IMG/VR virus record: IMGVR_UViG_3300030118_001018
Coordinates: 1 to 29,980 of that record
Length of the DNA stretch: 29,980 bases
Source of the DNA: a virus
Reading direction: 5' to 3' (one strand)
Position numbers and translations under genes: made by a program. Positions 1-20,898 of the stretch are shown here, piece after piece. The stretch's first letter is position 1; each line of letters opens with the position of its first letter. Below the pieces are notes generated by a model. That model worked only from the letters and a program-made list of their open reading frames with translations. It did no database searches and was not told where the DNA came from.

Positions 1-2787
1 TTTGTTAATAGGATCAGTTTCCATTTGCCTAACAAACTTTTTGCTACTTTCTTCCATAATTTTTAAAAAATCTTTATTCTTTTTTTGCTCGTAAGTCATG
101 TTATCCCAACCTATTTCATTCCTTTTAGCAGCAACACGATCTGCGTTTATAGCGTCATCTAAAGCTTTGTGCTGATCTGCAAGCTTTATTTCGTCTGACA
201 GCAAACGTAAGGCATCATTACTAACTTTTCCCTGTTCTAATTCTTTAACAACTTTGTTGACGTTAACCTCAGAAGGCTTAGGAGTATTAAGTAATGGTGT
301 AGTTGGAGGTCTTACCTCACCATTCATTGCAGCTTTCTTAATAATATTATTTATTAAAACTCTTCTATTTGGTAATTCAGTTGCTGTTGTTGGCAATTCT
401 GTTTGTATCTCAGGTGTTTTTGTAGGTAAGACAGGATTATCTAATATTTCATTTATTATTTTTGGCTGTATTCTTCTTGTAACTACTCCAACTTTTGCTC
501 CCTGACCAATCTGTTCTGCACCTTCATTTAATAACTTGCTTATATTTGTATCTGCATATTTGTCCGCATCAAATTGTGCTATTGCAGATTCAGCAAAATT
601 CTTTTGATTTGCAGCTTCAAACCTGTCAATTTTACTACCAGCAGCCTCTAATCTATCTGCACCTTGTCCAGCTCTTCTAAATAAATTACGATCCTGGACT
701 AAATTTCTTCTAATAGATGCTGCTAACTGACCTTTTTCAATCATTAAATTTAACATTTCTGTATTACCAAACAAATCAACTTGGCCGCCTTCGGCTGTAG
801 GAGCATTTTTAGCTTGTTGCAATACTTCAGAAAAAGTTGCGTCAGTTACATCTTTTTTCTGTAAAACTTTATATGCAGTTTGCATGCCAGTTTCATCAAG
901 ACCGCTACCACCAAGCAATAATCCTCTGTTTTGTGTTAGTTTGCCGTCTAATACATCTTGGTAAATATTTTGTGGCAACTTGCTGAGTGCTAAACCTTTT
1001 GCCCCTAAACCAGACTTTAATGGAACTCCTATATCTGTTAATTGCTCTGGACTTGTTATATCTGATTCTTTTAAAAAATTAGCAGCATCAAAAGGAGTGC
1101 CACCGCCTTGAGCAATGTTAGTTAATGCTCCCTGTTGCCTTGCGGAAATAGCATCTGGAGCATCTAAAAATTCAACTTTAACTGAAGGTATGCCAAGCTC
1201 TTTAGCTTTAGCCAATCTGTTATGTCCATTAACAACGTAAGTAAATCCGTCTTTTGGATCTTCCCATACTTGGACTACTCCTTCTAAATCGTTATTCCAT
1301 TTTTCTACACCTTCTAATGATTGACCTTTTTGTACTCCCTGAGCATCAACACCGCCTTTAAATTGAAATCTAACTGGATCTAGCTTTATTTGTTCTACAT
1401 TTAAATATGGCATACCCATCAACCTATTAGGCATTAATGTTTTACCTTCGCCCTCTAATTTTTTAATACCTTTAACAACGTCCTGTCTTGTAAATTGCTC
1501 AAATTCTTTGCCAGTAATTTCTGTTATAACGTCTGATAATTCTGTACCATTCTTAGGATTAGCAAGAGACAATAAGTTATCAGTTGGTACTTGATTTATA
1601 CGAGTATTAATATCGGTTATTGCAAGGCTATTTGTAGGTGCTGATACATCGCTGTATTTTAATAATTGCTGATCACCGTCACCAGTTCTTTGTGAGATTT
1701 TTTCTATAGCTTCTGGTATATTCTTATCTACTTGTGCTATTTCAGATATTTGTTGGTCATCTAAATTTTCTAAAACTTCTTGTACTGAATCTGATTCTGG
1801 TGTTGCAGAGGTTATTTTTTCAGCATTTGTGCCATCAGGGTCTGTATTTTTTGTAAAAACAGTAGTACCGTTTGCGTCTTCTGCTATTAAATTATCTTCT
1901 ATTTGTTTATTTCTAAACTCTCTTCTTGGATTTGTAAAACTTTCAGATACTTTTGCTCTTGTATTATTTGGAAATAAATTTTTAATTTGTTTTGCATTTA
2001 ATAATCCAGCAAAACCAGTTGATATGCTTAAGTTTGGGCCAAAGGATGCCTTAGAAGCTTCGGTTCTGGTCATGCCAGGTTTAGTCCCAAAATTACCTCT
2101 ATTGTCATCTAAAAATGTACTTGGCACTTCATCAATAGCGTTTATTGCAGCTAGTCTTCCTATTGCACCCATTATTGTTTTTGCATTTCTAGGGTTTAAT
2201 AATTGCATTAAACGTCCTGTTGCTGGAATACCCGCAGCTACAAGATTGCCAGCACCGTAAGTTGCTAAACCTAAATATATATTCAGCATTAAGGCAGAAC
2301 GCATATCATCACCATTTTTTTCTGCAATACTCATTTCAGATGGTGCTTTTTCGCCTATGACCTTATAACCTTCTTCAACAAACGCATCAAAACCTCTACC
2401 TATCTCATAATCTGTATATTCACCTTTTTTTAAATCTGTAATTGCTCTTCCAGCGTCACCTATTGCCCTAACAGTTCCCAAAGAAGCTGTATTGTCTAAA
2501 TGTCTAGGTAATAATAATTCATAACCTAAATGTATATAAGAACCTAATAATTTGCCTATATCACCACCAGTAACATCACCCTCTTTAACCTTGCCAACAA
2601 AATCGCTAGTTGCACCAACAGCGGCCATACCCTTACCTTCTGTAACATCCCACCAGGCATAATCCAATTTTGTTCCTGGGGCTTGTTTTTTCTTCTCTTC
2701 TTCTTCAACTTCTGCAACAAGAGTTTCTTCTTCTTCAACAGGCTTAGTAATTAGCTCGTTAGTCTCTAAGTTTTGTTCTATTGGCAT
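1..2787 (-). CDS. Internal virion protein, gp16 position, with ParB-like domain (3' end off window)
   Basis: I translated this frame by hand: it is open from the ATG at 2787 to the left edge, 929 codons with no stop. It lies 4 bases after the gp15-like gene and is the next gene of the late operon, the place of T7 gp16, the large internal protein ejected into the host. The N-terminus is acidic and Lys-rich (about residues 18-38). Around residues 500-560 there is a ParB-like signature: VVNGHNRLAKAKELGIPSV, with N520, G521, H522, N523, R524, matching the G-H-N/R-R-x-x-A-x-x-x-G box of ParB/sulfiredoxin-fold nucleases. It is followed by a helical segment and an LFG motif at 672-674, an arrangement I recall from phage polyvalent ejected proteins. 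I see no lytic transglycosylase motif. The gp16 role is inferred from position; the ParB-like box is seen in sequence. Confidence 0.8.
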   Translation of the reverse strand, partial: MPIEQNLETNELITKPVEEEETLVAEVEEEEKKKQAPGTKLDYAWWDVTEGKGMAAVGATSDFVGKVKEGDVTGGDIGKLLGSYIHLGYELLLPRHLDNTASLGTVRAIGDAGRAITDLKKGEYTDYEIGRGFDAFVEEGYKVIGEKAPSEMSIAEKNGDDMRSALMLNIYLGLATYGAGNLVAAGIPATGRLMQLLNPRNAKTIMGAIGRLAAINAIDEVPSTFLDDNRGNFGTKPGMTRTEASKASFGPNLSISTGFAGLLNAKQIKNLFPNNTRAKVSESFTNPRREFRNKQIEDNLIAEDANGTTVFTKNTDPDGTNAEKITSATPESDSVQEVLENLDDQQISEIAQVDKNIPEAIEKISQRTGDGDQQLLKYSDVSAPTNSLAITDINTRINQVPTDNLLSLANPKNGTELSDVITEITGKEFEQFTRQDVVKGIKKLEGEGKTLMPNRLMGMPYLNVEQIKLDPVRFQFKGGVDAQGVQKGQSLEGVEKWNNDLEGVVQVWEDPKDGFTYVVNGHNRLAKAKELGIPSVKVEFLDAPDAISARQQGALTNIAQGGGTPFDAANFLKESDITSPEQLTDIGVPLKSGLGAKGLALSKLPQNIYQDVLDGKLTQNRGLLLGGSGLDETGMQTAYKVLQKKDVTDATFSEVLQQAKNAPTAEGGQVDLFGNTEMLNLMIEKGQLAASIRRNLVQDRNLFRRAGQGADRLEAAGSKIDRFEAANQKNFAESAIAQFDADKYADTNISKLLNEGAEQIGQGAKVGVVTRRIQPKIINEILDNPVLPTKTPEIQTELPTTATELPNRRVLINNIIKKAAMNGEVRPPTTPLLNTPKPSEVNVNKVVKELEQGKVSNDALRLLSDEIKLADQHKALDDAINADRVAAKRNEIGWDNMTYEQKKNKDFLKIMEESSKKFVRQMETDPINK

Positions 2788-2791: not shown

Positions 2792-5035
2792 TTAACCTCT
2801 GTAATTAAGACGTTTAGGTGCTGTTCCGCTTAATGCGTAAACAATGTAATTAGTAGCGTCAGATAATTGACCTGTACCTGGAGACATGCCTTTTATTGAA
2901 CTTTTAAGTCCTATATGTGCATTACCTTTTTGTAAAAGGAATTTACGTTGTTCTTCACTAGGGTAGAACTCCTCTTCTTTATAATGCTCTAAAGTATCTA
3001 TTAGCAACTGAAATGGTGATACATTGTATTGATTTGCAAGCCATTTCATAGGCATTGGCATATTCATTGGATTTTCTAAAACTATTTTTAAAACTTTTTG
3101 TGCATCATTTGCAGAAATTATTGGAAACTGCTTGTAATCTTGTTTTTCAATTCTTGTTAAAGGGACTGATTGTAAGGTAGATAATCTGTAAGTAGGTGGA
3201 GCATCTATTGGTTTTTCATCTTTTTTTTGTTTTATTGAATTAGAAAAAATACCGTCTAAAGATTCTTTGTTTTTATTAAATTCTGTAATCGTCTTGTTTA
3301 TAATTTTACCTTGCTCTGCTGCACTTAATTCTCCTTTTTCATTTATTTCAGCGGCAATGTTTTCATATATTTGATCTGCTAATTGATTTTTATAATTTAT
3401 TGATGATTCTTGCTGATTAGATTTTAAATTTCCAATATATTCCTGAACGTCCATTTTGCTAATATCCTTGCCTCTCATAACAGCAGTAGCTACATCTGGG
3501 TAATATTTTTCAACCATAAGAGCTGTAGCTTCTTTTATTTTGTTATTTATCATTGTTGTTTCGTAAGCACCACTAGCTTCAGATCTTTTCTGTCTTGTCA
3601 TGGTTGCAAATTCTTGCCATTTCTTTGTTTTATATGCTGCAAGCTCTGGAGGAATATCAGCCAATGCTTCTGTTAGTTCTTTTCTAACAGCAGTTTCGTC
3701 ATACATAGCTCCATGCCTACTTTGATTTAATGCAAATATTTCTTCTACAGGTGCAGTATTGAATGTAGTTTTTGCAGCAGTTTCATCTAACTGATCTATT
3801 TCCTGGAACAGTTCTATTCTTTTTGCGTATGATAAATTATCATCTGACAATAATTCAGCTACAGCAGCGTTATACTTTGCACTACCTTTTTCTAATGGAA
3901 CAATAGTTTCAGCCCATCTAAGAACAAAATCTTTTTCTGCTGCCTCTTCTTTTCTTTTATTTATTTGATGTGCAGCATTACCAATTTTATTAGATTCAAT
4001 AAGAAAATCTGCACCAAACATTTCACCAGCAGTAGTTATTTTCGTGACATTACCTTTATCATCTGTGACCATGTGTACTGGCACACTTTCTAACATTCCT
4101 AAATAACTAGCAGCTCTTTGAGAATGTTTATTATTTGGATCTATAGCTTCTACTTCTAGCTGTGCTCTTAATGCTAATAAAACATCTTTTTTAAATTCTG
4201 TTGGCTCTAAAGGTAAACCTAATTTTTTTACCTGGTCATTAAGAATAGTTCCTAAACTTGCTACTAAATCATTTTCTGTTAATTCTTCTTTTTTCCAATT
4301 TGTTAATGCCTGGTATAACTGTGCCTTAGTTAATGTTTTTTGTAATTCTTTCTGAAATTTTGTATATGCTTTTAAATGTTTACTGTTAAAACCCTGCCAT
4401 GACTTGTTTACAGAAGGAATTGTGTAATCAATAAAACTTGCACTTGTTTCATCTACTCCCCAATCCTGGGCTAATTGTGTAACAGCCTCTGCTTTTATTT
4501 GATCTAATCTTGGATTTAAAGGATCTAAAGATACTATCTCTGCTGCGTATTTGTTGTACACCCTATCCATGTATATGCCAGCTTCACCAGCAGCTAATTT
4601 ACTAAGTTGATCTTCTCTTGCCTTTTGCCTCCAGGGGTTAACTTCATCCATCATCATGCCTGCAATAGCATCTTCTCTGGACACTTGCTTATTAGTTGCA
4701 GCGTAGTTTTCTGCACTATTAATAGCCTGTCTATTTGCAAGGGCTAAAGATTTTATTACATCATTTCTACCTTTCTGTTCTTCAATACTTTTAACAACTG
4801 GCCCTAGCTGACTAACAGCCTGGCTTGTTTGTTTTAAGGCATCAGATAATTGTTTAAAGCTGTTGTAGCCTTGAACACTCATCTCGTTAGATCGTTGAAT
4901 TATGTTGACACCTTTTGGTGTTGGCATCTCTACTAACTTAGGCGGTGCAGCGGGTTGTTCTGACCTGTAAGACAAAAATCTATTTACTGGTTTAGCAGTA
5001 GGGTTTAATTGGTTTTTTGGAAGTTCTTGTACCAT
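2792..5035 (-). CDS. Internal virion protein, gp15-like
   Basis: The 747-residue product is the same size as T7 gp15 (747) and sits between the gp14-like and gp16-like genes, as in T7. In T7, gp15 is part of the internal core and is ejected to help form the DNA conduit across the periplasm. The protein is hydrophilic and mostly helical, with many Lys, Glu and Gln residues and no signal peptide or membrane segment. The start overlaps the stop of the upstream gene by one base (TAATG type), which suggests translational coupling. The assignment rests on position, length and composition, since sequence conservation in this family is low. Confidence 0.75.
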   Translation of the reverse strand: MVQELPKNQLNPTAKPVNRFLSYRSEQPAAPPKLVEMPTPKGVNIIQRSNEMSVQGYNSFKQLSDALKQTSQAVSQLGPVVKSIEEQKGRNDVIKSLALANRQAINSAENYAATNKQVSREDAIAGMMMDEVNPWRQKAREDQLSKLAAGEAGIYMDRVYNKYAAEIVSLDPLNPRLDQIKAEAVTQLAQDWGVDETSASFIDYTIPSVNKSWQGFNSKHLKAYTKFQKELQKTLTKAQLYQALTNWKKEELTENDLVASLGTILNDQVKKLGLPLEPTEFKKDVLLALRAQLEVEAIDPNNKHSQRAASYLGMLESVPVHMVTDDKGNVTKITTAGEMFGADFLIESNKIGNAAHQINKRKEEAAEKDFVLRWAETIVPLEKGSAKYNAAVAELLSDDNLSYAKRIELFQEIDQLDETAAKTTFNTAPVEEIFALNQSRHGAMYDETAVRKELTEALADIPPELAAYKTKKWQEFATMTRQKRSEASGAYETTMINNKIKEATALMVEKYYPDVATAVMRGKDISKMDVQEYIGNLKSNQQESSINYKNQLADQIYENIAAEINEKGELSAAEQGKIINKTITEFNKNKESLDGIFSNSIKQKKDEKPIDAPPTYRLSTLQSVPLTRIEKQDYKQFPIISANDAQKVLKIVLENPMNMPMPMKWLANQYNVSPFQLLIDTLEHYKEEEFYPSEEQRKFLLQKGNAHIGLKSSIKGMSPGTGQLSDATNYIVYALSGTAPKRLNYRG

Positions 5036-5814
5036 TATTTCAATGCTCCATAAGTAGATAATCCAGCAGATAAACCACCAGCAACAGAACCAAGCAATGC
5101 TGCCCCTGCACTTGGCCCGCTGCCAACCATTGATGGCCCTGCTGGACCGATCAATGTAGGTAATGGAGCAAATGGTGGAATAGGATCAAGATATTCTTGC
5201 TGCTGATAAAACTGTTGACTATTGTATTGATTTAGATATTGAGAAACAGCACCAGCTTGTTGTCTGTTGTATTGACTTTCTTTAAACCCATCATTTATAC
5301 GTTTTAAAGTTGTAAAATCTCCTACTTGCCTTGCATAATCATTCATTAACCTATCGACAGATGGCCCTTCCGTAGCACCCGCTGCAATAGTACTTCTAGC
5401 TTTTAATGCTTGCACATTGTATTGATATAAAGCTACGGCATCAGACATTGCTTCTTGTTGAAACCCTTGAGCAAAAGCTTCGCTTGTACTTATGTAATCT
5501 GCACCAGCAGATGCCCTTGCTCTTGCAACTTCTTCTGCACTAACTATTGCTTTGCTTAATTCATAATTTCTAAGAGAATTTGTATATGCAAGGTTTTGAC
5601 CGTAATTTATTTTTTCTCCCCAAAACCTATATTGATTATTTAAATCTGCTTGAGATGCTTGCTGCCTGGCAGACCAAGTAGCAAATTCATCAGATGCTTT
5701 TTTATAAGCTAATTTATTAACATAATCTTGTCTTTGTGCCTGGTAGTTTGCTATCCCACTTAAAAAGTTAAGAGTACCAGAAACTGCTCCAAACCCTGCT
5801 GCACTTAATACCAT
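5035..5814 (-). CDS. Internal virion protein, gp14-like
   Basis: This 259-residue protein starts with a Gly/Ala-rich hydrophobic stretch (residues 3-22). A long Ala/Gln/Tyr-rich helical body follows, and the C-terminus is Gly/Ala/Ser-rich (about 220-259). That pattern is typical of T7 gp14 relatives, short internal core proteins thought to insert in the outer membrane during ejection. It is coupled by one-base overlaps to the gp13-like gene upstream and the gp15-like gene downstream. The role is assigned from position and composition. Confidence 0.7.
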   Translation of the reverse strand: MVLSAAGFGAVSGTLNFLSGIANYQAQRQDYVNKLAYKKASDEFATWSARQQASQADLNNQYRFWGEKINYGQNLAYTNSLRNYELSKAIVSAEEVARARASAGADYISTSEAFAQGFQQEAMSDAVALYQYNVQALKARSTIAAGATEGPSVDRLMNDYARQVGDFTTLKRINDGFKESQYNRQQAGAVSQYLNQYNSQQFYQQQEYLDPIPPFAPLPTLIGPAGPSMVGSGPSAGAALLGSVAGGLSAGLSTYGALK

Positions 5815-6260
5815 TAATTAGTCCTCCAAAATTGACAAAACAAAGCCCTAGAAAGGCCATACGGTCTAGGGGTTTCAACCGTAAAGCCAAGATATTTTAA
5901 CCATTTAATTGATGATTTATTTTCGTGATATACCCAATTTCCTATAGGTTTTTTTGTTTTATCAAGACAATATTCAACCCATTTAATACCATCAATACAT
6001 AAAGTTTTTCTATGATTTTTTGTAGCAGTTAATCCGTCCGTACCTAACAGCCAAATAGATTGATTAGTGACGCCAGTTAAACCAACTGGATCTCCATTGT
6101 CTCCTTCTATGGCTCTGCAAATATCAGAATTTTTAGCACTTTCCATAACAGCAGTTAAAGGGTCTAGGTCATGGCTAAGACGTACTTCTAGCTCATCGGC
6201 TTCTCTCAGTGCCAAGCCAATTTCCTGTATAACTTTTTCATTAGGCTCTATCCATTTCAT
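5814..6260 (-). CDS. gp13-like protein, GNAT-type fold (DUF2833-like)
   Basis: The product is 148 residues, close to T7 gp13 (138), and lies between tail tube B and the gp14-like gene, exactly as gp13 does in T7. The C-terminal half has the look of this acetyltransferase-like family: a segment on host or virus interaction (WLLGTDGL near residues 70-77), a helix, then LKYLGFTVETPRPYG (about 122-136), which corresponds to the last strand-helix elements of the GNAT fold. In T7, gp13 is needed for virion assembly and is not known to acetylate anything. The start overlaps the tail tube B stop by four bases. Confidence 0.75.
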   Translation of the reverse strand: MKWIEPNEKVIQEIGLALREADELEVRLSHDLDPLTAVMESAKNSDICRAIEGDNGDPVGLTGVTNQSIWLLGTDGLTATKNHRKTLCIDGIKWVEYCLDKTKKPIGNWVYHENKSSIKWLKYLGFTVETPRPYGLSRALFCQFWRTN

Positions 6261-8785
6261 CGTAATGACCTCGCTTTACCTGTAATTAAGGCAGTCCATT
6301 CACAGGTAGAAAACTTACATGGATGCGGTGTGTCATTCTTTATTTCAACTACACATCTTTCTCCCCTAGACATTATTGGAATAGTAAATACACCCTCCTT
6401 AAACCTGTTGTCATCTGGGTTATAGCCATTAGGTAATGCAGAACCTATTAAAGATATACGACTACCTAATACTGTTCCGTCAAACTTATAAACAGATGTA
6501 TTCCTTCTTTCTGCTGTAACTTCAATATCAAAATATGCAGTTTCATGGTATCTAAGTTTTGCATGTCTTACTTGTGTTCTTTCTACGTTTGCAGCAGCTT
6601 TGCCTCCTCCAATTTCTTTATATAATTTGAATTTTGTAAACCTATATCTAAATTCATATTGCTCTCCAAAAAATACTGGAGCATTAGCCCAATTTCCAGA
6701 GGCAGTAATAGAAGTGCCAGAAGTGATTGTTGACAATAAAACACCGCCATTAAATGTAGTATGAAATCCTGACCATGCTTGTGTTGTAGCAGCAGCAGTA
6801 AAAGGCAATGTCCAGGTAGTTGTGTTTGCAGTAGCGTTGTAAGTTCCAGAAGCAACCCTCATAGCTGATGGGGTATCAGTTGTTGTAGAAACTCTTCTAT
6901 CTAGCAACAATGGATAGGGGCTACCAGAAGGAGGTTCTGGACTACGATCTTGTACTGGTATCTTTTCTAAAAATACTTTTGTGCCGTATCTCATTAAACA
7001 AAACAAAGTTTCTCTAATACAAAGCACTTGTAATATTTCATCTGCTCCAGCAAAAGTCCAATGACTCCAGCTTGACTGTGCTCTTTCTACACCTCCACTG
7101 CCACTTCTTAAAAAATACTTGTAAACGTAAATTCTATTTGTAAATCCTGTTTTATGACTCAATGCAAATACTGCATTACTTGTATCATTAACAGTAATTT
7201 TAAAAACATCGCTAGGAACATAGGCAGAAACATAACCTGTTAAATCTTGTGCATCAGCAGTTAAAGCAGTACCAGCACCCCGAACACTAAATTCTCTAAA
7301 TTGTGAAAAATCACCGTTTGCCTGGCAAAATATAATACCTCCACCCGCCAGTTGTGGCCTAACATTTGTATCTATTTCAAACTGCGTTAAAACTGTAATT
7401 TGTGCAGTTGCTGGAGTTAATATTGTTTCCGCTGCATTAAACCTAAATTGATATTGCGAACTAAATAAAATTAATTCATCTTGGTAAGGTATTGCATATT
7501 TAAGAATACTTACTCTGTTATTACTAGCAACAACATCTATAGGGTCACTATCTAAAACAGTAGTAACTGTTTCTGGGAAAAAATCAAATAATGATCTAAC
7601 TCTGGAAAGTATTACATTTTCATCTGCAAGAAATCCTAATCTATTTTTATAGATAAATATGTCATTAATAGGATTACCAATAAAACTTGGGTCTGGAGCT
7701 GTTGTTGTATCTCCAGCAATACGCTCTCCCCAGCTTGGAATCTTTACTTCCCAAGCAACACCATTTATTGTTCCTGATTGAGTAGATCCATTTGCAGGGC
7801 CAAAGAAAAATGTACCATCTGGCAATGCCACTAACAGATGTGGCATTGTATCTCTATTTATTTTGTACTTATCTCCAGGCTTAACTGTTTCACTCCAAGT
7901 ACCTTCACCAAATGTTCCGCTTTTTGGTGCAAAAGAAACATGAAAATCATCAAAACTATTCGTTGGATCACCTTCTATAGTTACCTGGTAATTTTCTGGA
8001 GCTATAGTTGGCAGCTCTGTAAAAGCTTGCACTTTGTCAAATATTGCAGTTATATCAGCATTTGATCTGGCATCAGATACAGATATTGTTAATGCATTAT
8101 TAGATGTGACATGTATAACAGCACCACTTCTAGCAAAATTAACACCCGACAAAGATGAAAAACCATTGATAATATTAGTGGCAATATCTTCAGAACTAAT
8201 TCTATTTTCTGTTACTGTACTTCCGCTTGCAACAACTGGTGCAACCGCAGTCTGTACCGTTACTTCTGTTCCGTTTACGTTTACTCTATACGTTTGACCG
8301 TAAGTAGCTGCCCTTACCCAAATTAATGCTTCATGTGTAGTTGACCTTGCAACAACAGGTGCAACATCGTTGGTCATTGCTGGGCTGGTAAGCGTATTAG
8401 TTATAAATGTAAAATCAGCAATTGTAACAGCTCTTAACTGAGTTTTTGCATCAGTTATTGTTGATAAATAATTATAAGCATTACTTGCTGGGTTTACAGT
8501 TTTAGGATTACCTTCTAAATCAAAAACTTTAATAACACTAGAACTAATAACAGCTAAGTATTCCTCAACTTTATCTCGCAAAATACTATGAATAAAACAA
8601 TCACCAAAACTACTATTAGAAACTAAACCTATTGTTTCACTACAATCTCTTTTTCTTAAGCCTTCTACAATAGAAGACATCCCATTAATTTGTATTTCTG
8701 CCTGAGAAGGATCACGTTGAGCATCAGGTTGTTGACTAATGCCTTGAGCTAAATTTGGTATTGAATAACTTGTTAAAGAACTCAT
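6257..8785 (-). CDS. Tail tubular protein B (nozzle), gp12-like
   Basis: This 842-residue protein is slightly longer than T7 gp12 (794) and follows tail tube A with a 4-base overlap, as in T7. The N-terminus has the family pattern: LAQGISQQPDAQRDPSQAE, residues 12-30, with G-I-S-Q-Q-P and Q-E-N/Q-type continuation. The central part is rich in beta strands, with F-I-Y-K-N-R-L-G-F-L around residues 375-384 and G-R/V-x-F-L-E segments later. Gp12 forms the distal nozzle of the short tail and carries the fibre attachment site. I am confident of family and role. Confidence 0.93.
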   Translation of the reverse strand: MSSLTSYSIPNLAQGISQQPDAQRDPSQAEIQINGMSSIVEGLRKRDCSETIGLVSNSSFGDCFIHSILRDKVEEYLAVISSSVIKVFDLEGNPKTVNPASNAYNYLSTITDAKTQLRAVTIADFTFITNTLTSPAMTNDVAPVVARSTTHEALIWVRAATYGQTYRVNVNGTEVTVQTAVAPVVASGSTVTENRISSEDIATNIINGFSSLSGVNFARSGAVIHVTSNNALTISVSDARSNADITAIFDKVQAFTELPTIAPENYQVTIEGDPTNSFDDFHVSFAPKSGTFGEGTWSETVKPGDKYKINRDTMPHLLVALPDGTFFFGPANGSTQSGTINGVAWEVKIPSWGERIAGDTTTAPDPSFIGNPINDIFIYKNRLGFLADENVILSRVRSLFDFFPETVTTVLDSDPIDVVASNNRVSILKYAIPYQDELILFSSQYQFRFNAAETILTPATAQITVLTQFEIDTNVRPQLAGGGIIFCQANGDFSQFREFSVRGAGTALTADAQDLTGYVSAYVPSDVFKITVNDTSNAVFALSHKTGFTNRIYVYKYFLRSGSGGVERAQSSWSHWTFAGADEILQVLCIRETLFCLMRYGTKVFLEKIPVQDRSPEPPSGSPYPLLLDRRVSTTTDTPSAMRVASGTYNATANTTTWTLPFTAAATTQAWSGFHTTFNGGVLLSTITSGTSITASGNWANAPVFFGEQYEFRYRFTKFKLYKEIGGGKAAANVERTQVRHAKLRYHETAYFDIEVTAERRNTSVYKFDGTVLGSRISLIGSALPNGYNPDDNRFKEGVFTIPIMSRGERCVVEIKNDTPHPCKFSTCEWTALITGKARSLR

Positions 8786-9444
8786 AACCTATACGCTGTA
8801 CCTATTCTTCTTGTTGCCAAGCCCATAGCTGGGTCATAAGTAGGAAATGGCAAATAATTACGACCACCAGTTAAGATATTTGGAACTTCTTGCTGCTGCT
8901 CCATACGTTCTAAAACTATTTTTGCGTCAAGTTCATCTTTAGATGTGTATTTAAATAAAGCATCAGATCCTAATACACGATCAGAAAATACTCTTGCAGC
9001 TCTAATTGTTACCCATCTGTTATAAGCTTCTGGCACATCATCCCAGGCTAATAACCATATAACATCAGCTTTTATTTCATTAACAGTAGTTTCCATTGTA
9101 TATCTTCTTTCTTGCAAGTCATATATTTTTTGACCTCGTAATTGATAGCGACCAGCATATAAGTATGGATCTAATGCAAATTGCAATATATTAGTTGGTA
9201 CTATAATTTCTCCAGTATTTGAATCTTTTTGAAAAGGATATTGAAATTCTGTATTCCAACTCCAACCTTTTGTTTGTCCTTCTTTGTGAAATTCTAATAT
9301 TGTTCTTTCTGCTTGCTTTGAATCATCTATTTGTTCTGTTTCTAAGCTATTTATAGGCTGCTCTCCAATATTTTCCAGCAAGACATTTACTGCGTCTAAT
9401 AACGTAGTACGACCCTGTGTAACCGATTGGTTTCTAATGCCCAT
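8782..9444 (-). CDS. Tail tubular protein A, gp11-like
   Basis: The 220-residue product matches T7 gp11 (196) in position and pattern. The start TLLDAVNVLLENIGEQPI (about residues 14-31) is the usual A-x-N-x-L-L-x-x-I-G-E-x-P-V opening of these adaptor proteins. The segment AYNRWVTIRAARVFSDRVLG (about 140-159) is the conserved helix. Gp11 forms the ring that links the portal to the nozzle. The gene lies just after the capsid terminator, and its start is only 9 bases from a CACATGTG palindrome, so it may have its own control. Confidence 0.93.
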   Translation of the reverse strand: MGIRNQSVTQGRTTLLDAVNVLLENIGEQPINSLETEQIDDSKQAERTILEFHKEGQTKGWSWNTEFQYPFQKDSNTGEIIVPTNILQFALDPYLYAGRYQLRGQKIYDLQERRYTMETTVNEIKADVIWLLAWDDVPEAYNRWVTIRAARVFSDRVLGSDALFKYTSKDELDAKIVLERMEQQQEVPNILTGGRNYLPFPTYDPAMGLATRRIGTAYRL

Positions 9445-9449
9445 AATTA

Positions 9450-9465
9450 TTTACACATGTGTTGA
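9450..9465. promoter_or_regulatory. Palindromic operator candidate, copy 1
   Basis: TTTACACATGTGTTGA is a 16-base near-palindrome centred on CACATGTG. The same core lies at 20903 and 28969, with one base change at 17587. All four are in intergenic DNA close to a gene start. This copy is just upstream of tail tube A. On the minus strand a TATACT box lies a few bases upstream of it. Confidence 0.5.
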
Positions 9466-9484
9466 GTATATTCTACAAGAATAA

Positions 9485-9513
9485 GAAAAAAGAGCCAGTA
9501 AATGACTCTTTTT
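9485..9513 (-). terminator. Intrinsic terminator after the major capsid gene
   Basis: On the minus strand the arms AAGAGTCA and TGGCTCTT form an 8-pair stem (one G-U pair) with a 5-base loop, followed by a run of T. It sits about 40 bases after the capsid stop, the position of T-phi in T7, where it limits read-through from capsid into the tail genes. The plus-strand reading also has a T run, so it could work in both directions. Confidence 0.75.
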
Positions 9514-9547
9514 AGACCAAAGTATGCAATTTGATATTAAATCAAAT

Positions 9548-10573
9548 TTATGGGATTACAACTTTACATGCAGATTCAGCTCTTAGAACACCCATGCCTA
9601 ATGCTTGACGAGCAACCATTAAGTCAGCTTGGTGCTGTACTCTAAATTCTTCACCTGTCATTTGCAGTTGTGGAGATAGTAGTGATACAACTCCTACAGC
9701 TTCTTTGTTAAAGATAAGACCTTTGCACTTACTTAGGTTTTGTGCGTAATCAGAGTTATGATCACCAGCTACTAATGAATAGTTTGCCTGTGTAACGTGA
9801 TTAGACATCAAGATTGGAATACCAGCAACTTGCAAGGTACGACCATCAGCAATAGTTCCACTACCACCAAAGTCAGCGTTAATAGCTCTTGATGATTGTG
9901 TAATTAAGTAATAATCTTCTGGGCCAAATACAGCACACATATCTGTGATGCTTACGTCCTTAGATTCAAAACCAACTCTTGCATCAAAAATAGCGTTAAC
10001 AAGAGCATCACCTTTTGCTTGGCGAGTCGCACCAGAGGCTGTGTAATCTGTGCCAAGTGTTATGCCTTGACCAGTTCTACCGCTGTTAGATGATTTGTTT
10101 AAAGGCTCAGTAGCATTAGAAGCAGCAGCAAAAATCATTCTTGCAACACGCTTGTCATACTCAACGGCTAAAGCCCTTCCCAATTCAGTTGTATAAATTT
10201 GTCTAACGTCAAAGTAAGACATTAATTCATCAACTTCTAGGATCGCAACGTCTGCAACCATTAATGCGTCAAGATTAATGATACGCTCATTTAAATCTGA
10301 AGGATCGTTGCCGTCACCTGTAATGACAGTACCTGGTTGATGATAGGACGCACTTAGCTTTCCTGTAATTGGGAAGGCTACGGATTTGCCTCCTCTTATG
10401 TTTCTTTCTCTAGTTTTGCCTTTAAAAACGCAAGCTCTTTCAAAAGCATCGAGAACCTCGGCAGAGCCGAGTTTGAGCATCAAGGCTCTATCTGTATCAA
10501 GACCAGTAGCTCCAGCTTGCCAGGTGGCAGCAGAACCCTTAATCTGACCCAGACGGCTTAAAGTTACAGCCAT
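9548..10573 (-). CDS. Major capsid protein, gp10-like
   Basis: The 341-residue product compares well with T7 gp10A (345). Shared family features include LMLKLGSAEVLDAFERA (about residues 31-47), a GGKSVAFPITG strand (about 61-71), and INLDALMVADVAILEVDELM (about 99-118), followed by YFDVR and the long helix with ELGRALAVEYDKRVAR. This is the HK97-fold shell protein of T7-like heads. The gene uses more C- and G-ending codons than its neighbours, as expected for a highly expressed protein. A terminator follows it. Confidence 0.96.
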   Translation of the reverse strand: MAVTLSRLGQIKGSAATWQAGATGLDTDRALMLKLGSAEVLDAFERACVFKGKTRERNIRGGKSVAFPITGKLSASYHQPGTVITGDGNDPSDLNERIINLDALMVADVAILEVDELMSYFDVRQIYTTELGRALAVEYDKRVARMIFAAASNATEPLNKSSNSGRTGQGITLGTDYTASGATRQAKGDALVNAIFDARVGFESKDVSITDMCAVFGPEDYYLITQSSRAINADFGGSGTIADGRTLQVAGIPILMSNHVTQANYSLVAGDHNSDYAQNLSKCKGLIFNKEAVGVVSLLSPQLQMTGEEFRVQHQADLMVARQALGMGVLRAESACKVVIP

Positions 10574-10687
10574 GTGGATAAAAAATTAAATTTACAAAAT
10601 ACTTTTTAGTTCGCCTAATTCAATAACATCCACAGGTTGTCCACCTAAGCGGGCCTGGTGCTTGAAATGCTAACTGTTTTTAATATA
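10574..10687 (-). promoter_or_regulatory. Leader between scaffold and capsid genes
   Basis: This 114-base gap is unusually long for the late operon. On the minus strand it contains the partly repeated words GGTGGACAA and TGTGGATG, then a long AT-rich leader to the capsid ATG. A capsid-specific promoter is plausible, since T7 has its strongest class III promoter here. I cannot identify a promoter consensus. Confidence 0.3.
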
Positions 10688-11530
10688 CTAAAAAACGTCA
10701 GAATTGAGTAGTATTTTTGCAACTTTATCTCTATAAGCTTCATCAACATCATATAATCTTTGTCCTTTACTATTTGTTTTGTTCATTGCATCTAATACTT
10801 GCTGTTTACTTTCGTATTTATTTTCCGCTGGTACATTTCCACCCCCGTAGAGTTTTGGTTCTACAACTGATCCAGGAGACTTCATTTGTGACTGAAAATA
10901 TTTCAATGCCCATGTAGCAGCTTCTTTATTTGTATCTGCTATTTGGTTGTATTGATCTAATACATCTTTATCAACATTCTTTTCAGCCCATTGAGTAACT
11001 TCTTTAAACGCTTCATCCCCGCCAATAGCGTTTCTTACCTCTACTCCATCTTCAGGTGTTAAGGGAGCAACAGTTGCTTGCGATTGCTGTGCAGCATTAA
11101 CATAATTTTCTACCACTGCTTTAGGAACATTAAAAACTTCGGCTAAAGTATCAAAGTTTTCACTAATATCTTCACCGTTATCAGCTCTTTTCATAACGTC
11201 AGCCATATCTAATCCTTTTTCTGCTAAAGCTTCTACATATTCTTTTCCGTATAGTTCAGAAGCGGCTTCTGTTGTGTAGTTTTCATCAGGTTCTTTAGAC
11301 GGTGGTTCTACTTCTGTTTTTTCTTGTTGTTGCCCAACACGTTTTTCTAATTCTGTATAAGCTTTTGCTAAATCTTCCTGAGTATTGAATTTTCCTAAAA
11401 TTTTATTATTAGACTGTGCAGCTTCTTGTTCTTGCACAAATTCTTCTAATAAATTCTCTTGCCCTGGTGCGACAATACCTTCTAATTGTTCAGGTGTAGA
11501 AATTTGTGGGCTGTTTGGAGTTTCGGTCAT
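10688..11530 (-). CDS. Capsid assembly scaffolding protein, gp9-like
   Basis: This 280-residue, strongly acidic protein lies between portal and capsid, the fixed place of T7 gp9 (307 residues). It has the expected low-complexity, Glu/Gln-rich N-terminus, including LGKFNTQEDLAKAYTELEKR (about residues 45-64), a motif common in phage scaffolds. A helical middle and a basic C-terminal tail (Y-R-D-K-V-A-K-I-L) follow. Scaffolds of this class direct shell assembly and then leave the prohead. Confidence 0.92.
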   Translation of the reverse strand: MTETPNSPQISTPEQLEGIVAPGQENLLEEFVQEQEAAQSNNKILGKFNTQEDLAKAYTELEKRVGQQQEKTEVEPPSKEPDENYTTEAASELYGKEYVEALAEKGLDMADVMKRADNGEDISENFDTLAEVFNVPKAVVENYVNAAQQSQATVAPLTPEDGVEVRNAIGGDEAFKEVTQWAEKNVDKDVLDQYNQIADTNKEAATWALKYFQSQMKSPGSVVEPKLYGGGNVPAENKYESKQQVLDAMNKTNSKGQRLYDVDEAYRDKVAKILLNSDVF

Positions 11531-11532
11531 GG

Positions 11533-13152
11533 TTATTCAGTAGGTGTTTCTGTTGGAGCTTGCATTTCTTGCGTCATTTGTGCCGCATTAGCAAGTTTTT
11601 GTGGATCAGCCATGCCTGATTGCATAGCTTGTTGTGCAAGAGCTAGTTGTTGTTGCTGTTGCATCTCTTGCATCAACTCTTGCTCAGACTTAACTAATCC
11701 CACTATGTCAATACCCATTGAATAAGCTAAACGCTTAATTAATTCAGATGGTTTAACATAAGTTGCTAAAGATTCTGGGCCCATTGTTTGTCCAAGTGTT
11801 TGCACAAACCTGACTAACTGTTCTAAGTCATTACCTCTACCTACGGCTGATAAACCAACAGTTATTACTGGCTGTACTAAATCAGATGGTAATTTTGGCA
11901 CTTTGCCTTCTCTAGTTAAAATATCTAGCTTACGAGCAACGTATGGTATTTGAAATTCTGTACTTAAAATTGAATAAATAGAGCCTAAACTATTTTCTAT
12001 TTGCAATGCTTGAAGCCTTACTTCTTCTGCTGTAACTCTTTCTGCATCTCTCATGTCAGCTAACATAAAAGCTTGAGATAACCGCATTTCTATTTGCTGT
12101 TTGGCTTGCATTGCAACTGACATGTCCTGACTTTTTTGCACTTGCAACGCTAAAACGTCATTTGGATCTCCAGTTACAAAAGATCCGTTAGCTGCTCTTG
12201 CTAAATCTGCTGCCTTTGTAACTCCTGACGGTTTTGTAAGAAATAAAACTTTAGATGACGCTAATGCACCTTCTGCTATTGCCTGACATAATGCTTCAAC
12301 TGTTTGTAAATCTGCTAAAGCTGCACTCTCAACATAAGACACACCGTATGCCTGTCCATCTACTCTGGTCATGCGTAATGGCAGCCAGGGTGATCTATCT
12401 TTTGGTGCTTTGCCTTCTGTTCCTGGTACAATTTTATTTTTTACTTCTTGATGCCAATAAACTTGACCATCTCTCCACTCTATATGCGTATATAACCGAC
12501 ATTTCTTTTCACTATCTGGCTGATTGTTATAGTCATCTTCTTCTACACCCGCTAATTCTTCATCTTCTTCCATTAACATATCTTTGATAACAGCAGGCAA
12601 AACTTCATAAGCAAGTTCTTCACAAATAACAGATTCCATAGGATTACCCATCGGATCTCTTGTTATTACAAATCTATTTAAATGAAATACACGCAAACCT
12701 TCACTTGCTACATAAAGCATTGCATTACCACTAACAATTAAATGCAATAAGGCTTCATGGAAAACAACTCTGTCATTACTAGCTTCTATTTCCCTTAATA
12801 CCATTCTTTCTATTCTGCTTAATGCTTCTTCTGTAGCAGATTTTTCATCAGGCCCAACACCTTGTTTTGCTAACTCTCCTTCATCTAGTGAAAACCTAAA
12901 CATCTGTTGAGTTGGAGGTAACAAAGCAAGCAGCATACGACTTGCAAGGTTAAGAACACCTCTTGGCCCAATACCGTTCCAGGGAACAGGATAATTTTCT
13001 TTAGAATTATATGTAGGTTCTGCTGACTCAGGTATTAAATATGGCATTGTTAACCTGGCACAAGTCCTAGCACGATCAAGATGATAATTTCTATCTTGTT
13101 CATGTGTTCTATAGAACTTTTCAGCCATTGCAGCAGATTTAGAGTAAACCAT
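11533..13152 (-). CDS. Portal (head-tail connector) protein, gp8-like
   Basis: The product is 539 residues; T7 gp8 is 536. Typical features are the N-terminal helix with RARTCARLTMPYLIPE (about residues 27-42) and a segment with GPRGVLNLASRMLLALLPP (about 62-80). R-D-A-E-R-V-T-A-E-E-V-R occurs around residues 366-377, and a Gln-rich C-terminus follows (about 490-515). Twelve copies form the ring at the packaging vertex. The start is 3 bases from the preceding gene, within the late operon. Confidence 0.95.
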   Translation of the reverse strand: MVYSKSAAMAEKFYRTHEQDRNYHLDRARTCARLTMPYLIPESAEPTYNSKENYPVPWNGIGPRGVLNLASRMLLALLPPTQQMFRFSLDEGELAKQGVGPDEKSATEEALSRIERMVLREIEASNDRVVFHEALLHLIVSGNAMLYVASEGLRVFHLNRFVITRDPMGNPMESVICEELAYEVLPAVIKDMLMEEDEELAGVEEDDYNNQPDSEKKCRLYTHIEWRDGQVYWHQEVKNKIVPGTEGKAPKDRSPWLPLRMTRVDGQAYGVSYVESAALADLQTVEALCQAIAEGALASSKVLFLTKPSGVTKAADLARAANGSFVTGDPNDVLALQVQKSQDMSVAMQAKQQIEMRLSQAFMLADMRDAERVTAEEVRLQALQIENSLGSIYSILSTEFQIPYVARKLDILTREGKVPKLPSDLVQPVITVGLSAVGRGNDLEQLVRFVQTLGQTMGPESLATYVKPSELIKRLAYSMGIDIVGLVKSEQELMQEMQQQQQLALAQQAMQSGMADPQKLANAAQMTQEMQAPTETPTE

Positions 13153-13154
13153 AA

Positions 13155-13658
13155 TTAGACAGAAATGTTTGCACCAGAACCAGCGTCAGACTGACTGCCA
13201 GAACCAATTTTTAATGATGTGCGTGTAGTTTTAGCACCTCGCCTTGTTTTGTTTCTTGTATCAACTTGAGCTGTTTGTGCTCTTCTTGGATCTTCAGATA
13301 ATATTTTTAAAGAACCAGTAACAGCCTGTCCTCTAGCTCTTATACCTCCTAATATTTGCTCTTGCTCTGCTCTTAAACTTGCAGCTTGTGATTTTTGCCC
13401 TTCAATTATTTGTGCCTGCTCTGCCTGCATTGCCTGCAAGCTTGCCTGTTGTTGTGCAGCAGTAGCTTCTCTTTGTATTTTTAACCTCTCCAATTCAGCT
13501 CTTTTTTGTGCTGCTCTTCGATCTGCTTCTGCCTGTGCTCTAGCTGCTGCTTTATCAACTTGATGTTGTTTTTCTCTTTCTACAGCTTTAACTCCTTCAT
13601 TTACTGCAAAACCGCCTGCAACTACTTTTGCTATTGGTACTACTGCTGGTGCACACAT
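13155..13658 (-). CDS. Small virion-region protein with MC start and GSG-type C-terminus (1 of 3)
   Basis: This 167-residue protein begins MCAPAVVP and has a weakly hydrophobic N-terminal stretch. A long Ala/Gln/Arg-rich coiled-coil body (about residues 28-110) follows, and the end is SLKIGSGSQ...GSGANISV. Its two upstream neighbours also start with MC and end with L-K/R-I, then G-S/A-G-x-N-I/L. It looks like one of three related proteins. The position just before portal suggests a virion or head-assembly role, but I recognise no function. Confidence 0.75.
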   Translation of the reverse strand: MCAPAVVPIAKVVAGGFAVNEGVKAVEREKQHQVDKAAARAQAEADRRAAQKRAELERLKIQREATAAQQQASLQAMQAEQAQIIEGQKSQAASLRAEQEQILGGIRARGQAVTGSLKILSEDPRRAQTAQVDTRNKTRRGAKTTRTSLKIGSGSQSDAGSGANISV

Positions 13659-13660
13659 AA

Positions 13661-14056
13661 TTAAACTCCTATGTTAAGGCCAGCACCTTCACTAGCTGCC
13701 ATTAATGATCTATTAATTTTTAAAGTTTTTGTAGGCTTATTTTTTTTAGGTTTTGCAGCAGTAGTTTGTGCATTTGTTGGAACTTCTGCTTGTTGTGTAG
13801 TTGTTGCATAAGTAGAAGCTTGTTGCGCTGCGGCTGCGGCTGCGGCTGCGGCTTGTTCATTCCCAAGTTGTTCTTGGAGTTGTGCTGTTTGAGCATTAGC
13901 AGCATCAATTTGACTTTGTAATTGTGTCTGAAAAGTTTGCTGCTGTGTAGCCATTTGCTCTTTAAAAGCATCTAAAGAAGCTTGGTTTGCTGCAATTTCT
14001 TCATCACTTGGCCCTTTATAGACAATATCTGGGGCTTGCGGTGTACCAAAACACAT
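13661..14056 (-). CDS. Small virion-region protein with MC start (2 of 3)
   Basis: The 131-residue product starts MCFGTPQAPD and has a Gln/Ala-rich coiled-coil core with a run of nine Ala (about residues 69-77). It ends KTLKINRSLMAASEGAGLNIGV (quoted here only as its ends: KTLKIN and GAGLNIGV). Start and end match the two neighbours, which makes a tandem-duplicated family likely. The Ala run is encoded by repeated GCN codons around 13829-13854. The function is unknown. It is encoded between the other two members with 2- and 10-base gaps. Confidence 0.75.
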   Translation of the reverse strand: MCFGTPQAPDIVYKGPSDEEIAANQASLDAFKEQMATQQQTFQTQLQSQIDAANAQTAQLQEQLGNEQAAAAAAAAAQQASTYATTTQQAEVPTNAQTTAAKPKKNKPTKTLKINRSLMAASEGAGLNIGV

Positions 14057-14066
14057 AATTTTACTC

Positions 14067-14465
14067 CTAAGTGTTGTAAGTGAGGTTTAAACCAGAGCCA
14101 GAACCTTGTTTTGTAGCTGTTTTTCTGCGTATTCGCAAACCACTTCTACCTTTTCCTTTAATTCCTCTGGCATCAGCACCTATTTTTGGTGGTTCTGCAC
14201 TTTTTTCTGGAGGTGGAGGCCCAGCTAAAGCCATTAATTGCCTTACCTGACGATCAACATTGTTAGCTGTTATCTGTTTTTGTGTGTTTAACGCTTGCAA
14301 AACATCTTGCTTTTCTCGTAATGAAGCTGTCAGTTGATTTTGTATCAACATAGTTTCATTATTCATTTGTGCTTGAATTGCTTCTTTTTGCAAATCAAAC
14401 TGCTTGTCATAAGCGTTATAGTCTGGTTTTGTGATTGTTCCTGGACTACCACCACCAAAACACAT
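14067..14465 (-). CDS. Small virion-region protein with MC start (3 of 3)
   Basis: This 132-residue protein begins MCFGGGSPGTITKPDYNAYD, then has a Gln-rich helical body (about residues 22-75), a Pro-rich linker (GPPPPEKSAEPP, about 82-93) and a basic C-terminus SGLRIRRK followed by GSGSGLNL. The MCFGGGSPG opening is one I associate with T7-like cyanophage genomes, where these proteins are annotated as hypothetical. It overlaps the 63-residue gene before it by one base. Confidence 0.75.
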   Translation of the reverse strand: MCFGGGSPGTITKPDYNAYDKQFDLQKEAIQAQMNNETMLIQNQLTASLREKQDVLQALNTQKQITANNVDRQVRQLMALAGPPPPEKSAEPPKIGADARGIKGKGRSGLRIRRKTATKQGSGSGLNLTYNT

Positions 14466-14656
14466 TAGATAACCTCCAAATTTAAAGGATTTTGTTCTTG
14501 AACTTCATGTTGAGCTATCAAATACCTAACAACAGATGCTTGACCAGCTCTAAACCACACCTCTTTGTCACTCAGATCAAGGCTTGGTGACTTATCTGGA
14601 AACTTTTCTGCTAAAACAGCAAGTAATTTCTTATCAATAGTTGGAAAATAAGACAT
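14465..14656 (-). CDS. Conserved small phage protein, function unknown
   Basis: The 63-residue product contains LDLSDKEVWFRAGQASVVRY (about residues 26-45). This segment looks like the conserved core of small proteins found near portal genes in marine podoviruses. It is the first gene of the portal operon on the minus strand and starts at the divergence point facing the small terminase. It is coupled to the next gene by a one-base overlap. No catalytic motif is visible. Confidence 0.7.
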   Translation of the reverse strand: MSYFPTIDKKLLAVLAEKFPDKSPSLDLSDKEVWFRAGQASVVRYLIAQHEVQEQNPLNLEVI

Positions 14657-14751
14657 TACAGAGGTGTAATACTCTTTAGATTACCCTTTTTACATGAAAT
14701 ATGTAACCTTTTGGCATAATATAAATAATATATTGCATATATGTAAACAAA
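14657..14751. promoter_or_regulatory. Divergent promoter region with TTACAT-N5-ATGTAA repeat
   Basis: This very AT-rich gap separates the minus-strand portal operon from the plus-strand small terminase gene. An inverted repeat TTACAT-GAAAT-ATGTAA lies at 14690-14706. A CATAAT box at 14715-14720 could be the -10 of a plus-strand promoter, with TTTACA at 14689 as a widely spaced -35. A near-identical 17-base repeat lies upstream of the ssDNA-binding protein gene (25163-25179). Confidence 0.45.
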
Positions 14752-14991
14752 ATGGCTGAATTATCAGAACTTTACGCAGAAATGCACGAATTAGTAGCAG
14801 AACAAGTGTTAGAAGATTTAAGAGATGGAGATCGTAAAGCAAGACAAGAAGCAATGCAGCTTTTAAAACAAAATAATGTAACTGCTACAGCAGCAGAAGG
14901 CAGTACATTAAAAAAATTAAAAAATAAATTAGATTTTTCTAGCCTTGCAGATAAAGTTGTACCTCTTACTGCCCCACCGTCAGCCTCTTGA
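14752..14991 (+). CDS. terS: Small terminase subunit, gp18-like, on the opposite strand
   Basis: This 79-residue protein has the pattern of T7-like small terminase (DNA maturase A): a first helix with LYAEMHELVAEQVLEDLRDG (about residues 7-26), then ARQEAMQLLKQNNV (about 30-43), then a short C-terminal part ending in LDFSSLADKVV. Small terminases of this group recognise the concatemer and regulate the large subunit. The gene is the only plus-strand gene inside the late block. Its last 26 bases overlap the 3' end of the large terminase gene on the other strand. The assignment is from pattern and context. Confidence 0.75.
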   Translation: MAELSELYAEMHELVAEQVLEDLRDGDRKARQEAMQLLKQNNVTATAAEGSTLKKLKNKLDFSSLADKVVPLTAPPSAS

Positions 14992-17621: not shown

Positions 17622-18121
17622 ACCATGCTTAGATTAGAGACGTTAAGGAGATTCCTTAGGCAAGAATCTTACAGAGAATTAACTTCAAATAACCTTTAAC
17701 CTTACATACCTTCTCTACCAATATTCTTTCAGCTTACCTCGATAAGCCTCTCTCGTAATAACCCCTTTTTGGGTCTCACGATTAAAGGGGGTTATCGATA
17801 CTGATTCGGCTACTTTTCCCCATAGCCCCCCTGGAAATCCTCTATAAAAAGAAGATTTCTATATATTTGCAACTATTAATGCAACTAAGGGAGGGAAGGG
17901 CCTGGGGCGGTTGGCCTGCATCACATTAAAAATGTGTTCGACTGCTGGACGGTCTGCAATTCAGTCCAGGAGGCCAGCAAGCAGGCAAGCATAAACAAAA
18001 GTAAGCACCCGCCAAAGAATAGCAGAAGATAACTAATGTAAAGTTTTATCAATATCTTATTTGCAGTAATGCAAAGTTATAAGAGGTCGTACAGAATAGA
18101 ACTAATGGCGGCAACACACAA
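17622..18121. other. Structure-rich noncoding divergence region
   Basis: I find no convincing gene between the first leftward gene and the first rightward gene. The stretch holds several inverted repeats. They are ATAACCCC/GGGGTTAT (17758-17795), GAAATC/GATTTC (17834-17859), TTGCA-N8-TGCAA (17867-17884) and a G+C-rich block at 17885-17990 with nested stems. Another is TTGCA-N4-TGCAA at 18061. Promoters for both directions, a structured RNA or a replication origin are all possible. Early transcription of the rightward genes must begin here. Confidence 0.6.
17911..17976 (+). ncRNA. Possible structured RNA, three-way junction
   Basis: An outer stem TGGCCT (17912-17917) / AGGCCA (17971-17976) encloses two hairpins: CACATT/AATGTG (17922-17936, loop AAA) and CTGGAC/GTCCAG (17945-17969). 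The loop of the second begins GGTCTGC, which recurs in the hairpin at 19015-19036. G+C content is well above the surroundings. Whether it acts as RNA or as DNA is unknown. Confidence 0.4.
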
Positions 18122-18130
18122 ACCACGACC
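18122..18130 (+). promoter_or_regulatory. ACCACGACC leader element, copy upstream of DUF2958-like gene
   Basis: The exact 9-mer lies 19 bases before the ATG at 18150, with AGGA between them as ribosome binding site. It recurs at 19061, 19863 and 21453 ahead of other plus-strand starts, with a one-mismatch copy at 21096. This placement is the main reason for choosing 18150 as the gene start. Confidence 0.5.
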
Positions 18131-18149
18131 ACCGCCAGGAATAAAAACA

Positions 18150-18515: not shown

Positions 18516-18658
18516 TGACTCCTACAGATACAGCTTGTCTTTTAATAGACAAGCTTAATCAACTAGACAAAAAGTATCTAGTTAAGACATTAGTTAGTTA
18601 TTTAAATCAGGCACAACGGGAAGAGATCCTGGACGATTTAAAAAGGGAGGTTTTCTAA
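18515..18658 (+). CDS. Small helical protein, 47 residues
   Basis: The product, MTPTDTACLLIDKLNQLDKK and onwards, is a two-helix-like peptide ending LDDLKREVF. It overlaps the previous stop by one base and ends directly before the next ATG. GGGAGG inside its 3' end serves the downstream gene. The function is unknown. It is too short for most callers but fits the tightly packed early operon. Confidence 0.65.
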   Translation: MTPTDTACLLIDKLNQLDKKYLVKTLVSYLNQAQREEILDDLKREVF

Positions 18659-19003: not shown

Positions 19004-19013
19004 AGACTCTAGC

Positions 19014-19812: not shown

Positions 19813-19820
19813 AGCCAGCC

Positions 19821-20834: not shown

Positions 20835-20898
20835 ACATAAAGTTATATAACAAAGGTTACAAGCTGCTTATTGAAAACCATTCTCAATGATGTGCCAA

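Follow-up and report, generated by a model that had tools for sequence, protein, structure and literature searches.

An exchangeable ParB-type cassette predicted in a split ejection protein of the gp16 type in marine T7-like phages

A marine T7-like phage very probably carries, in the N-terminal half of a split ejection protein of the gp16 type, an exchangeable cassette with two ParB-type core domains, a ParB/sulfiredoxin (Srx) domain and an HTH domain, followed by a helical tail. It has long been asked how phages of the T7 type hold the first stretch of their DNA and draw it into the cell, and T7 gp16 is a suspected clamp. Here bacteria's best-understood DNA clamp appears in a protein of that class, and since this version is predicted to stay locked, one purified domain would be enough to test the question. 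Additionally, a pattern of terminal cysteines suggests a way to keep a split ejection protein together, of which we found no description.

Genomic context of the ParB-module protein

The window, the whole stretch of 29,980 bases that was analysed, belongs to a marine T7-like phage and is a fragment of its virus record. On its minus strand the genes for portal, scaffold, capsid, gp11 (PF17212), gp12 nozzle (PF25675), gp13-type, gp14-type and gp15-position proteins are followed by the gene of the ParB-module protein (Table 1). The nearest named relatives of the nozzle protein were found in uncultured phages S37-C6, S31-C1 and S38-C3, and in Synechococcus phage S-SRP02. The gp15-position protein of S-SRP02 (locus L240, positions 17797-20703) is annotated as an N-acetylmuramoyl-L-alanine amidase, which indicates a wall-cutting domain in gp15 of that phage and thus another domain swap between ejection proteins.

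The ParB-module protein is the first half (p1) of a gp16-position protein split in two. Complete p1 in close relatives (72-78% identical) has 1,501-1,551 aa, and the second half (p2), a protein of about 1,140 aa, comes directly after p1 in complete relatives. Profile comparison matched p2 to 'internal virion protein D' of HTVC041P with a probability of 94% over 570 columns, and the N-terminal part of p1 weakly matched the same protein, so that p1 and p2 together can be regarded as one gp16-type protein with accessory domains inserted. No direct similarity of p1 or p2 to T7 gp15 or gp16 was detectable. A clear sequence homology between p2 and the C-terminal half of unsplit P-SCSP1-type proteins was rejected, as the two showed a weak collinear match (16.6%). 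The original prediction had placed the gene at the gp16 position as an internal virion protein, and this is supported by the gp13 and gp14 homologues upstream and by the homology of p2 to the HTVC041P protein; it had also seen no transglycosylase motif in the part present, and Pfam gave no transglycosylase match in full-length relatives either. From this position and homology we infer that the ParB-module protein is present in the virion and delivered into the cell.

Two other features of p1 were noted. Its hydrophobic segment, around residues 165-185, may be a helix with which such a gp16-type protein inserts into membranes. Towards the C-terminus of p1, beyond the edge of the window, an HExxH motif that is invariant in aligned relatives occurs with a conserved downstream Glu, which is suggestive of a gluzincin-like metallopeptidase. 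An AF2 model of this region from one relative gave no significant PDB match and no zincin, so a zincin fold was not accepted and the assignment stays with the motif. A single weak PARP match (E 7e-4) in one relative was dropped, since it was absent in five long proteins rescanned.

Table 1. Features of the ejection-protein genes and of the ParB-type module (window coordinates; residues are those of p1 unless another protein is named)
Feature	Window position	Strand	Residues	Basis or remark
gp13-type internal virion protein	5814..6260	-		phrog_308, E 2.8e-24
gp14-type internal virion protein	5035..5814	-		PF24072, E 3.5e-8
gp15-position internal virion protein, no Cys	2792..5035	-	747 aa	Position and size
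p1, N-terminal half of gp16-position ejection protein	1..2787	-	929 aa present	Cut by window edge; after gp11-gp12-gp13-gp14-gp15
Hydrophobic segment	2233..2295	-	165-185	Kyte-Doolittle 1.29; similar position in most relatives
ParB-type cassette	433..1455	-	~445-785	HMM on relatives, alignments, AF2 model
ParB/Srx-type nucleotide-binding domain	1108..1410	-	~460-560	hhalign, Foldseek
Box I (C-motif) equivalent PVRFQFK	1357..1377	-	471-477	Q475 invariant, K477 91/92
Box II equivalent G521-H522-N523-R524	1216..1227	-	521-524	Equivalent to BsParB G77-E78-R79-R80
Box III equivalent T556-N557-I-A-Q	1108..1122	-	from 556	Equivalent to BsParB E111-N112; N557 invariant
ParB-type central HTH (DNA-binding) domain	805..1095	-	~565-661	hhalign, PDB sequence matches
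LFG box and long helical C-terminal part	433..777	-	~671-785	Conserved in alignment; helices in model
HExxH, p1 of locus L003			1343-1347	Invariant in relatives

Structural and profile evidence for a ParB-type module

The minus-strand ORF (2787..1) contains TYVVNGHNRLAKAKELG, with G521, H522, N523 and R524 at window positions 1227-1216, precisely where a box with H522 and R524 had been predicted, and it contains QVDLFGN, whose L672, F673 and G674 confirm the predicted LFG. By alignment and model, residues ~445-785 are one conserved module with both predicted ParB core domains, an N-terminal ParB/sulfiredoxin domain and a central HTH domain. The module begins upstream of the interval first proposed, 450-1300, at residue ~445 (window 1455), and reaches to residue ~785 (window 433), and the LFG-containing helical segment, which had been described as following the ParB elements, is a part of the same module. 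Seven key positions (F, Q, G, H, N, I and D) are invariant in 92 distinct module sequences. We rejected a chance motif, because about 340 aa are conserved in those 92 sequences and because Foldseek and hhalign agreed, with strong controls.

An AF2 model of the module, made with 10 sequences (mean pLDDT 77), had the order beta-alpha-beta-beta-(GHNR helix)-beta-alpha, then a helical domain and long helices. When it was searched against the PDB by Foldseek, the first 27 matches were all ParB, Noc, KorB or Spo0J, with a best E of 3.7e-5. These matches extend over about 205 residues, and thus take in the nucleotide domain as well as the HTH domain; the two-domain superpositions were mostly loose, with TM-scores normalised to the target of 0.32-0.63 for the best 19. 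Structure prediction, which had been proposed as a check for the whole protein, gave a ParB fold for the module, and the ParB/sulfiredoxin fold read from the motifs is borne out by Foldseek and by the alignment scores that follow.

Aligned by hhalign to 29 ParB homologues, which had been collected with TIGR00180 and KorB, the module obtained a probability of 97% and a score of 80.6 with insert columns and 69.5 without them, compared to a maximum of 20.0 for 60 column-shuffled ParB alignments and 15.0 for the reversed alignment. The alignment was in register at Box I, II and III and at the HTH. Each domain also stood by itself, the N domain scoring 33.6 (maximum of 17.7 in 60 shuffles) and the HTH domain 44.6 (maximum of 14.5 in 60 shuffles). 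In an hmmsearch of 177,635 distinct PDB sequences with the module profile, the top three were M. xanthus ParB in the register of the HTH, at an E of 0.1 that is not significant alone, and the portal-borne version of the module matched phrog_620, 'ParB-like partition protein' (E 1e-3).

On the window, the curated models PF02195, PF18763 (E limit 1), TIGR00180 and PF17762 gave no match. PF02195, which had been proposed for the profile search, is among those that fail to match, and the module is therefore a divergent branch of ParB, not a member by database rules. A search of PHROGs matched residues 465-761 to positions 1024-1326 of the 'portal protein' profile phrog_21 (E 1.5e-39). The name was rejected, since the match is confined to the C-terminal module of that profile, and this confinement is what revealed portal fusions of the module.

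The nucleotide pocket and the hydrolysis glutamates

The pocket is conserved throughout the 92 sequences: Q, G, H and N were each found in 92/92 and the R of GHxR in 91/92, and F and the I of Box III were also invariant. Canonical ParB proteins have xQPR as the Box I motif, and in the Salisaeta sequence Box I is RFQPR, which supports Q475 as the Q of xQPR. In BsParB, the changes G77S and R80A interfere with CTP binding, and E78 and E111 are required for CTP hydrolysis; the E78Q and E111Q proteins bound CTP, closed the N-gate and loaded DNA, and did not hydrolyse (PMC8494293). In the module, the position equivalent to E78 is H in 92/92, and the position equivalent to E111 is never Glu in the 92 sequences, with Q, T, S, A, K or N among the residues listed.

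Since both hydrolysis glutamates are replaced, a canonical NTPase is unlikely. We predict from these residues that nucleotide binding is kept, that hydrolysis is lost and that the clamp is biased toward its closed state. The original prediction of a ParB-like nuclease or NTPase module thus survives as to ParB, whereas nuclease found no specific support and canonical NTPase is improbable with the glutamates replaced in 92 sequences; what is present is a two-domain core of an NTP pocket and an HTH. The nucleotide bound may be CTP or another; a 2025 survey of the ParB fold reported binders of CTP, ATP and GTP and found the nucleotide not reliably predictable from sequence (PMC12704722). The residues of the recognition helix vary between lineages, so a specific parS-like site is unproven. 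A search with PF13614 for a ParA-type ATPase in the phage's own record, which is a fragment, gave no match.

Distribution of the module

Iterative profile scans detected the module of about 340 aa in some two hundred viral stretches (218 relatives, of which 80 were kept). Among the classified loci, 61 had it beside T7-type gp11/gp12/gp14 genes, and in six (L087, L093, L098, L099, L106 and L115) it formed the C-terminus of a lambda-type portal, the portal part matching Phage_portal_2 at E ~1e-110 in two that were tested and exceeding the TIGR01539 cut-off in one. In L092 and L094 the module has an ORF of its own close to the portal gene, and the remaining classified loci had other or undetermined settings, including phage proteins of more than 4,000 aa. 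Cyanobacterial contigs have it too, as do those of a sphingomonad and others. Weaker relatives occur in a protein of 3,912 aa from Ruegeria phage 45A6, in Dunaliella viridis virus SI2 and in gp43 of Salisaeta icosahedral phage 1, which is annotated as a structural protein and DNA methyltransferase. The first-named virus of these two, SI2 (locus L016, positions 7948-12952), which has the ParB module, is recorded as infecting a green alga, but its taxonomy is Caudoviricetes and its genes are in the order of a tailed phage.

Among close relatives chosen by their nozzle protein (60-98% identical) and having enough downstream sequence, the module was present in 14 of 29 and absent in 15. Relatives without it keep the same N- and C-terminal parts of the gene: in four of them (L199, L201, L206 and L207) it is replaced at the same place by unrelated sequence of about 128-187 aa, and the other module-less relatives in which the order is clear have just 26-70 aa there. 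On a nozzle tree of 56 phages, presence and absence needed six changes, all forced by well-supported branches. The patchy presence and these forced changes indicate an accessory cassette that was repeatedly gained or lost, and since about half of the close relatives lack it, the cassette is not essential for ejection.

Terminal cysteines of split ejection proteins

In essentially every split pair examined, p1 has exactly one Cys, within its last four residues (...GGC or ...EGC, sometimes with 1 or 3 further residues), and p2 has exactly one Cys, at residue 3-5, typically in M-x-x-C-D-D-x-F. These pairs lie outside the window (L003, positions 8001-15982; L019; L050; L053; L061; L240, positions 20703-27037; and about 30 others), and the exceptions were two p1 ORFs with one extra Cys near the start. 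The p1 of the window has no Cys in its 929 residues, as expected, since its end lies outside the window. A single Cys at these places has a chance of about 0.003 and 0.004 per protein. Clustered at 60% identity the p2 set gives 18 groups, and at 40% it gives 10; this spread shows that the pattern does not come from one recent ancestor. Dunaliella viridis virus SI2, of a distant lineage, has the same pattern, with Cys 790 of 792 and Cys 6 of 830.

Ejection proteins of the gp15 and gp16 type otherwise lack cysteine. The unsplit homologues or counterparts in P-SCSP1, L038, P-SCSP2, HTVC041P and T7 (gp16; 0 Cys in 1318 residues, L244) contain no Cys at all. The same holds for gp15, both in T7 and in 45/45 relatives, whereas the median for the nozzle proteins of these phages is 6. 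The simplest reading of the sequences suggests a disulfide that would staple p1 to p2 end to end and restore one chain. A review of ejection proteins (PMC8954989) and the T7 ejection paper have no mention of cysteine or disulfide. As for gp14, that of phages with unsplit gp16 (T7, L244:5729; P-SCSP1, L002:4149; P-SCSP2, L243:16908; HTVC041P, L242:16797) has residue 2 as its only Cys, and that of the split-type phages checked has no Cys.

Possible roles of the module

According to a review, the C-terminal part of T7 gp16 reaches the host cytoplasm, binds DNA without sequence preference and is a suspected clamp that holds the genome at ~850 bp (PMC8954989). By analogy, a ParB-type module in a gp16-equivalent protein would most simply be an added DNA clamp for the first-entering end. 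The ejection protein would leave the virion before or together with the DNA, the conserved pocket of the cassette would bind a nucleotide (CTP or another NTP), and the cassette would then close, as ParB clamps do, around the leading phage DNA, which enters first, on the cytoplasmic side. Without both hydrolysis glutamates the clamp would stay closed, and it would hold, ratchet or shield the incoming end, as T7 gp16 does by other means. The homology, both domains, the conserved motifs, the gene position and the exchange of the cassette are established by the analysis, whereas virion location, injection, NTP binding, clamp closure and the DNA that is held are all parts of this proposal. Taken as a whole, such a nucleotide-bound clamp that stays closed on the first-entering DNA is something we put somewhat below an even chance, and cassette identity together with the clamp mechanism, which is our best explanation overall, comes close to an even chance without quite reaching it. 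Swapped in and out among related phages, the complete two-part module suggests that in some phages a DNA clamp is injected along with the genome. The fullest version, in which a permanently closing, non-hydrolysing injected clamp locks the first-entering end while its carrier is a gp16 split into two chains, joined end to end by a disulfide through the sole Cys of each half and parting in the reducing cytoplasm, is unlikely to be right in all its parts.

Alternatively, the protein may be an injected effector, a DNase or nickase under NTP control that acts against host DNA or aids early replication; Iyer et al. (2017) put forward such a role for the DdrB-like ParB domains of polyvalent proteins. 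The genomic theme is the same, giant proteins of late genes, linked to the virion, that have ParB and an HExxH motif (PMC5512222), and the weak relative gp43 of Salisaeta phage, with its annotation as methyltransferase and structural protein, also fits. However, the module has the whole CTPase and HTH architecture, it does not match the DdrB-ParB model (PF18763), no conserved acidic nuclease metal site was identified, and the missing hydrolysis glutamates, as read from sequence, argue against a simple nuclease. We consider an effector of this kind improbable.

A role within the capsid, where the module would bind DNA and so tether or order the genome at the internal core or portal, with no job in the host cell, draws on the HTH domain and on the lambda-type portals that bear the same module as a C-terminal extension and stay in the capsid. 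In the T7-like phages, however, the module sits in a protein of the ejected class, and its gain and loss among close relatives fits an accessory role better than assembly; we regard the tether as doubtful. That the module acts after injection against the host, as a ParB mimic disturbing ParABS/SMC or as an anti-defence factor, would suit a swappable accessory cassette with a ParB-like fold in an injected-type protein and a window with no parA-type gene, but the module is carried by phages and by prophage-like contigs whose hosts differ widely, which makes a single host target less likely, and we regard this as quite unlikely.

In the open-access literature (subscription papers were outside the search) no paper had both 'ParB' and 'internal virion protein', and none joined 'ParB', 'ejection proteins' and 'phage'; the view that a ParB domain in a T7-like core protein is unfamiliar agrees with the first of these results. 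The 2025 survey of the ParB fold used PF02195 for its search and does not mention portals or virions (PMC12704722). Since both the standard ParB models tested and this PF02195-based survey miss the module, a virion-linked branch of the ParB fold has probably gone uncounted.

Comparison with known systems

The same module in the same gene is found in gene 21 of the Prochlorococcus phages P-SCSP1a-u (MPP-C) and in BAQ94395 of uncultured phage S31-C1. In P-SCSP1, g20 and g21 were guessed to be internal virion proteins by size and position, in a paper in which 'ParB' is absent (PMC9860041). Unlike the split carrier described here, the P-SCSP1 protein is a single chain of 2,571 aa without Cys.

In comparison with T7 gp16 (internal virion protein D), the carrier is likewise encoded after gp14- and gp15-type genes, is likewise Cys-free in the portion in the window, and its p2 is homologous to the HTVC041P protein. 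It differs in being split in two, in having no transglycosylase domain that was found, in the inserted ParB cassette and HExxH region, and in that no similarity to T7 gp16 is detectable.

DdrB-like ParB domains were described in polyvalent phage proteins by Iyer et al. 2017 (PMC5512222), whose available text names no T7-type ejection protein with such a domain. The module resembles them, as far as that text goes, in being a ParB/Srx domain in large phage proteins that are linked to the virion, and an HExxH motif, zincin-like at the level of sequence, lies nearby; the kinship to polyvalent-type proteins that had been suggested is supported to this extent. It differs from them in having a ParB HTH, in giving no PF18763 match and in occurring in T7-type ejection proteins and lambda-type portals.

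Compared to the CTPase clamps ParB, Noc and KorB, the module has the equivalents of E78 and E111 replaced and a helical C-terminal tail instead of the known dimer domain; it is embedded in a large ejection or portal protein, falls below every curated ParB cut-off and has no ParA-type ATPase that was found in the window. Like those clamps, it has an N-terminal ParB/Srx domain followed by an HTH, and it keeps the Q of Box I, the GxxR of Box II and the N of Box III.
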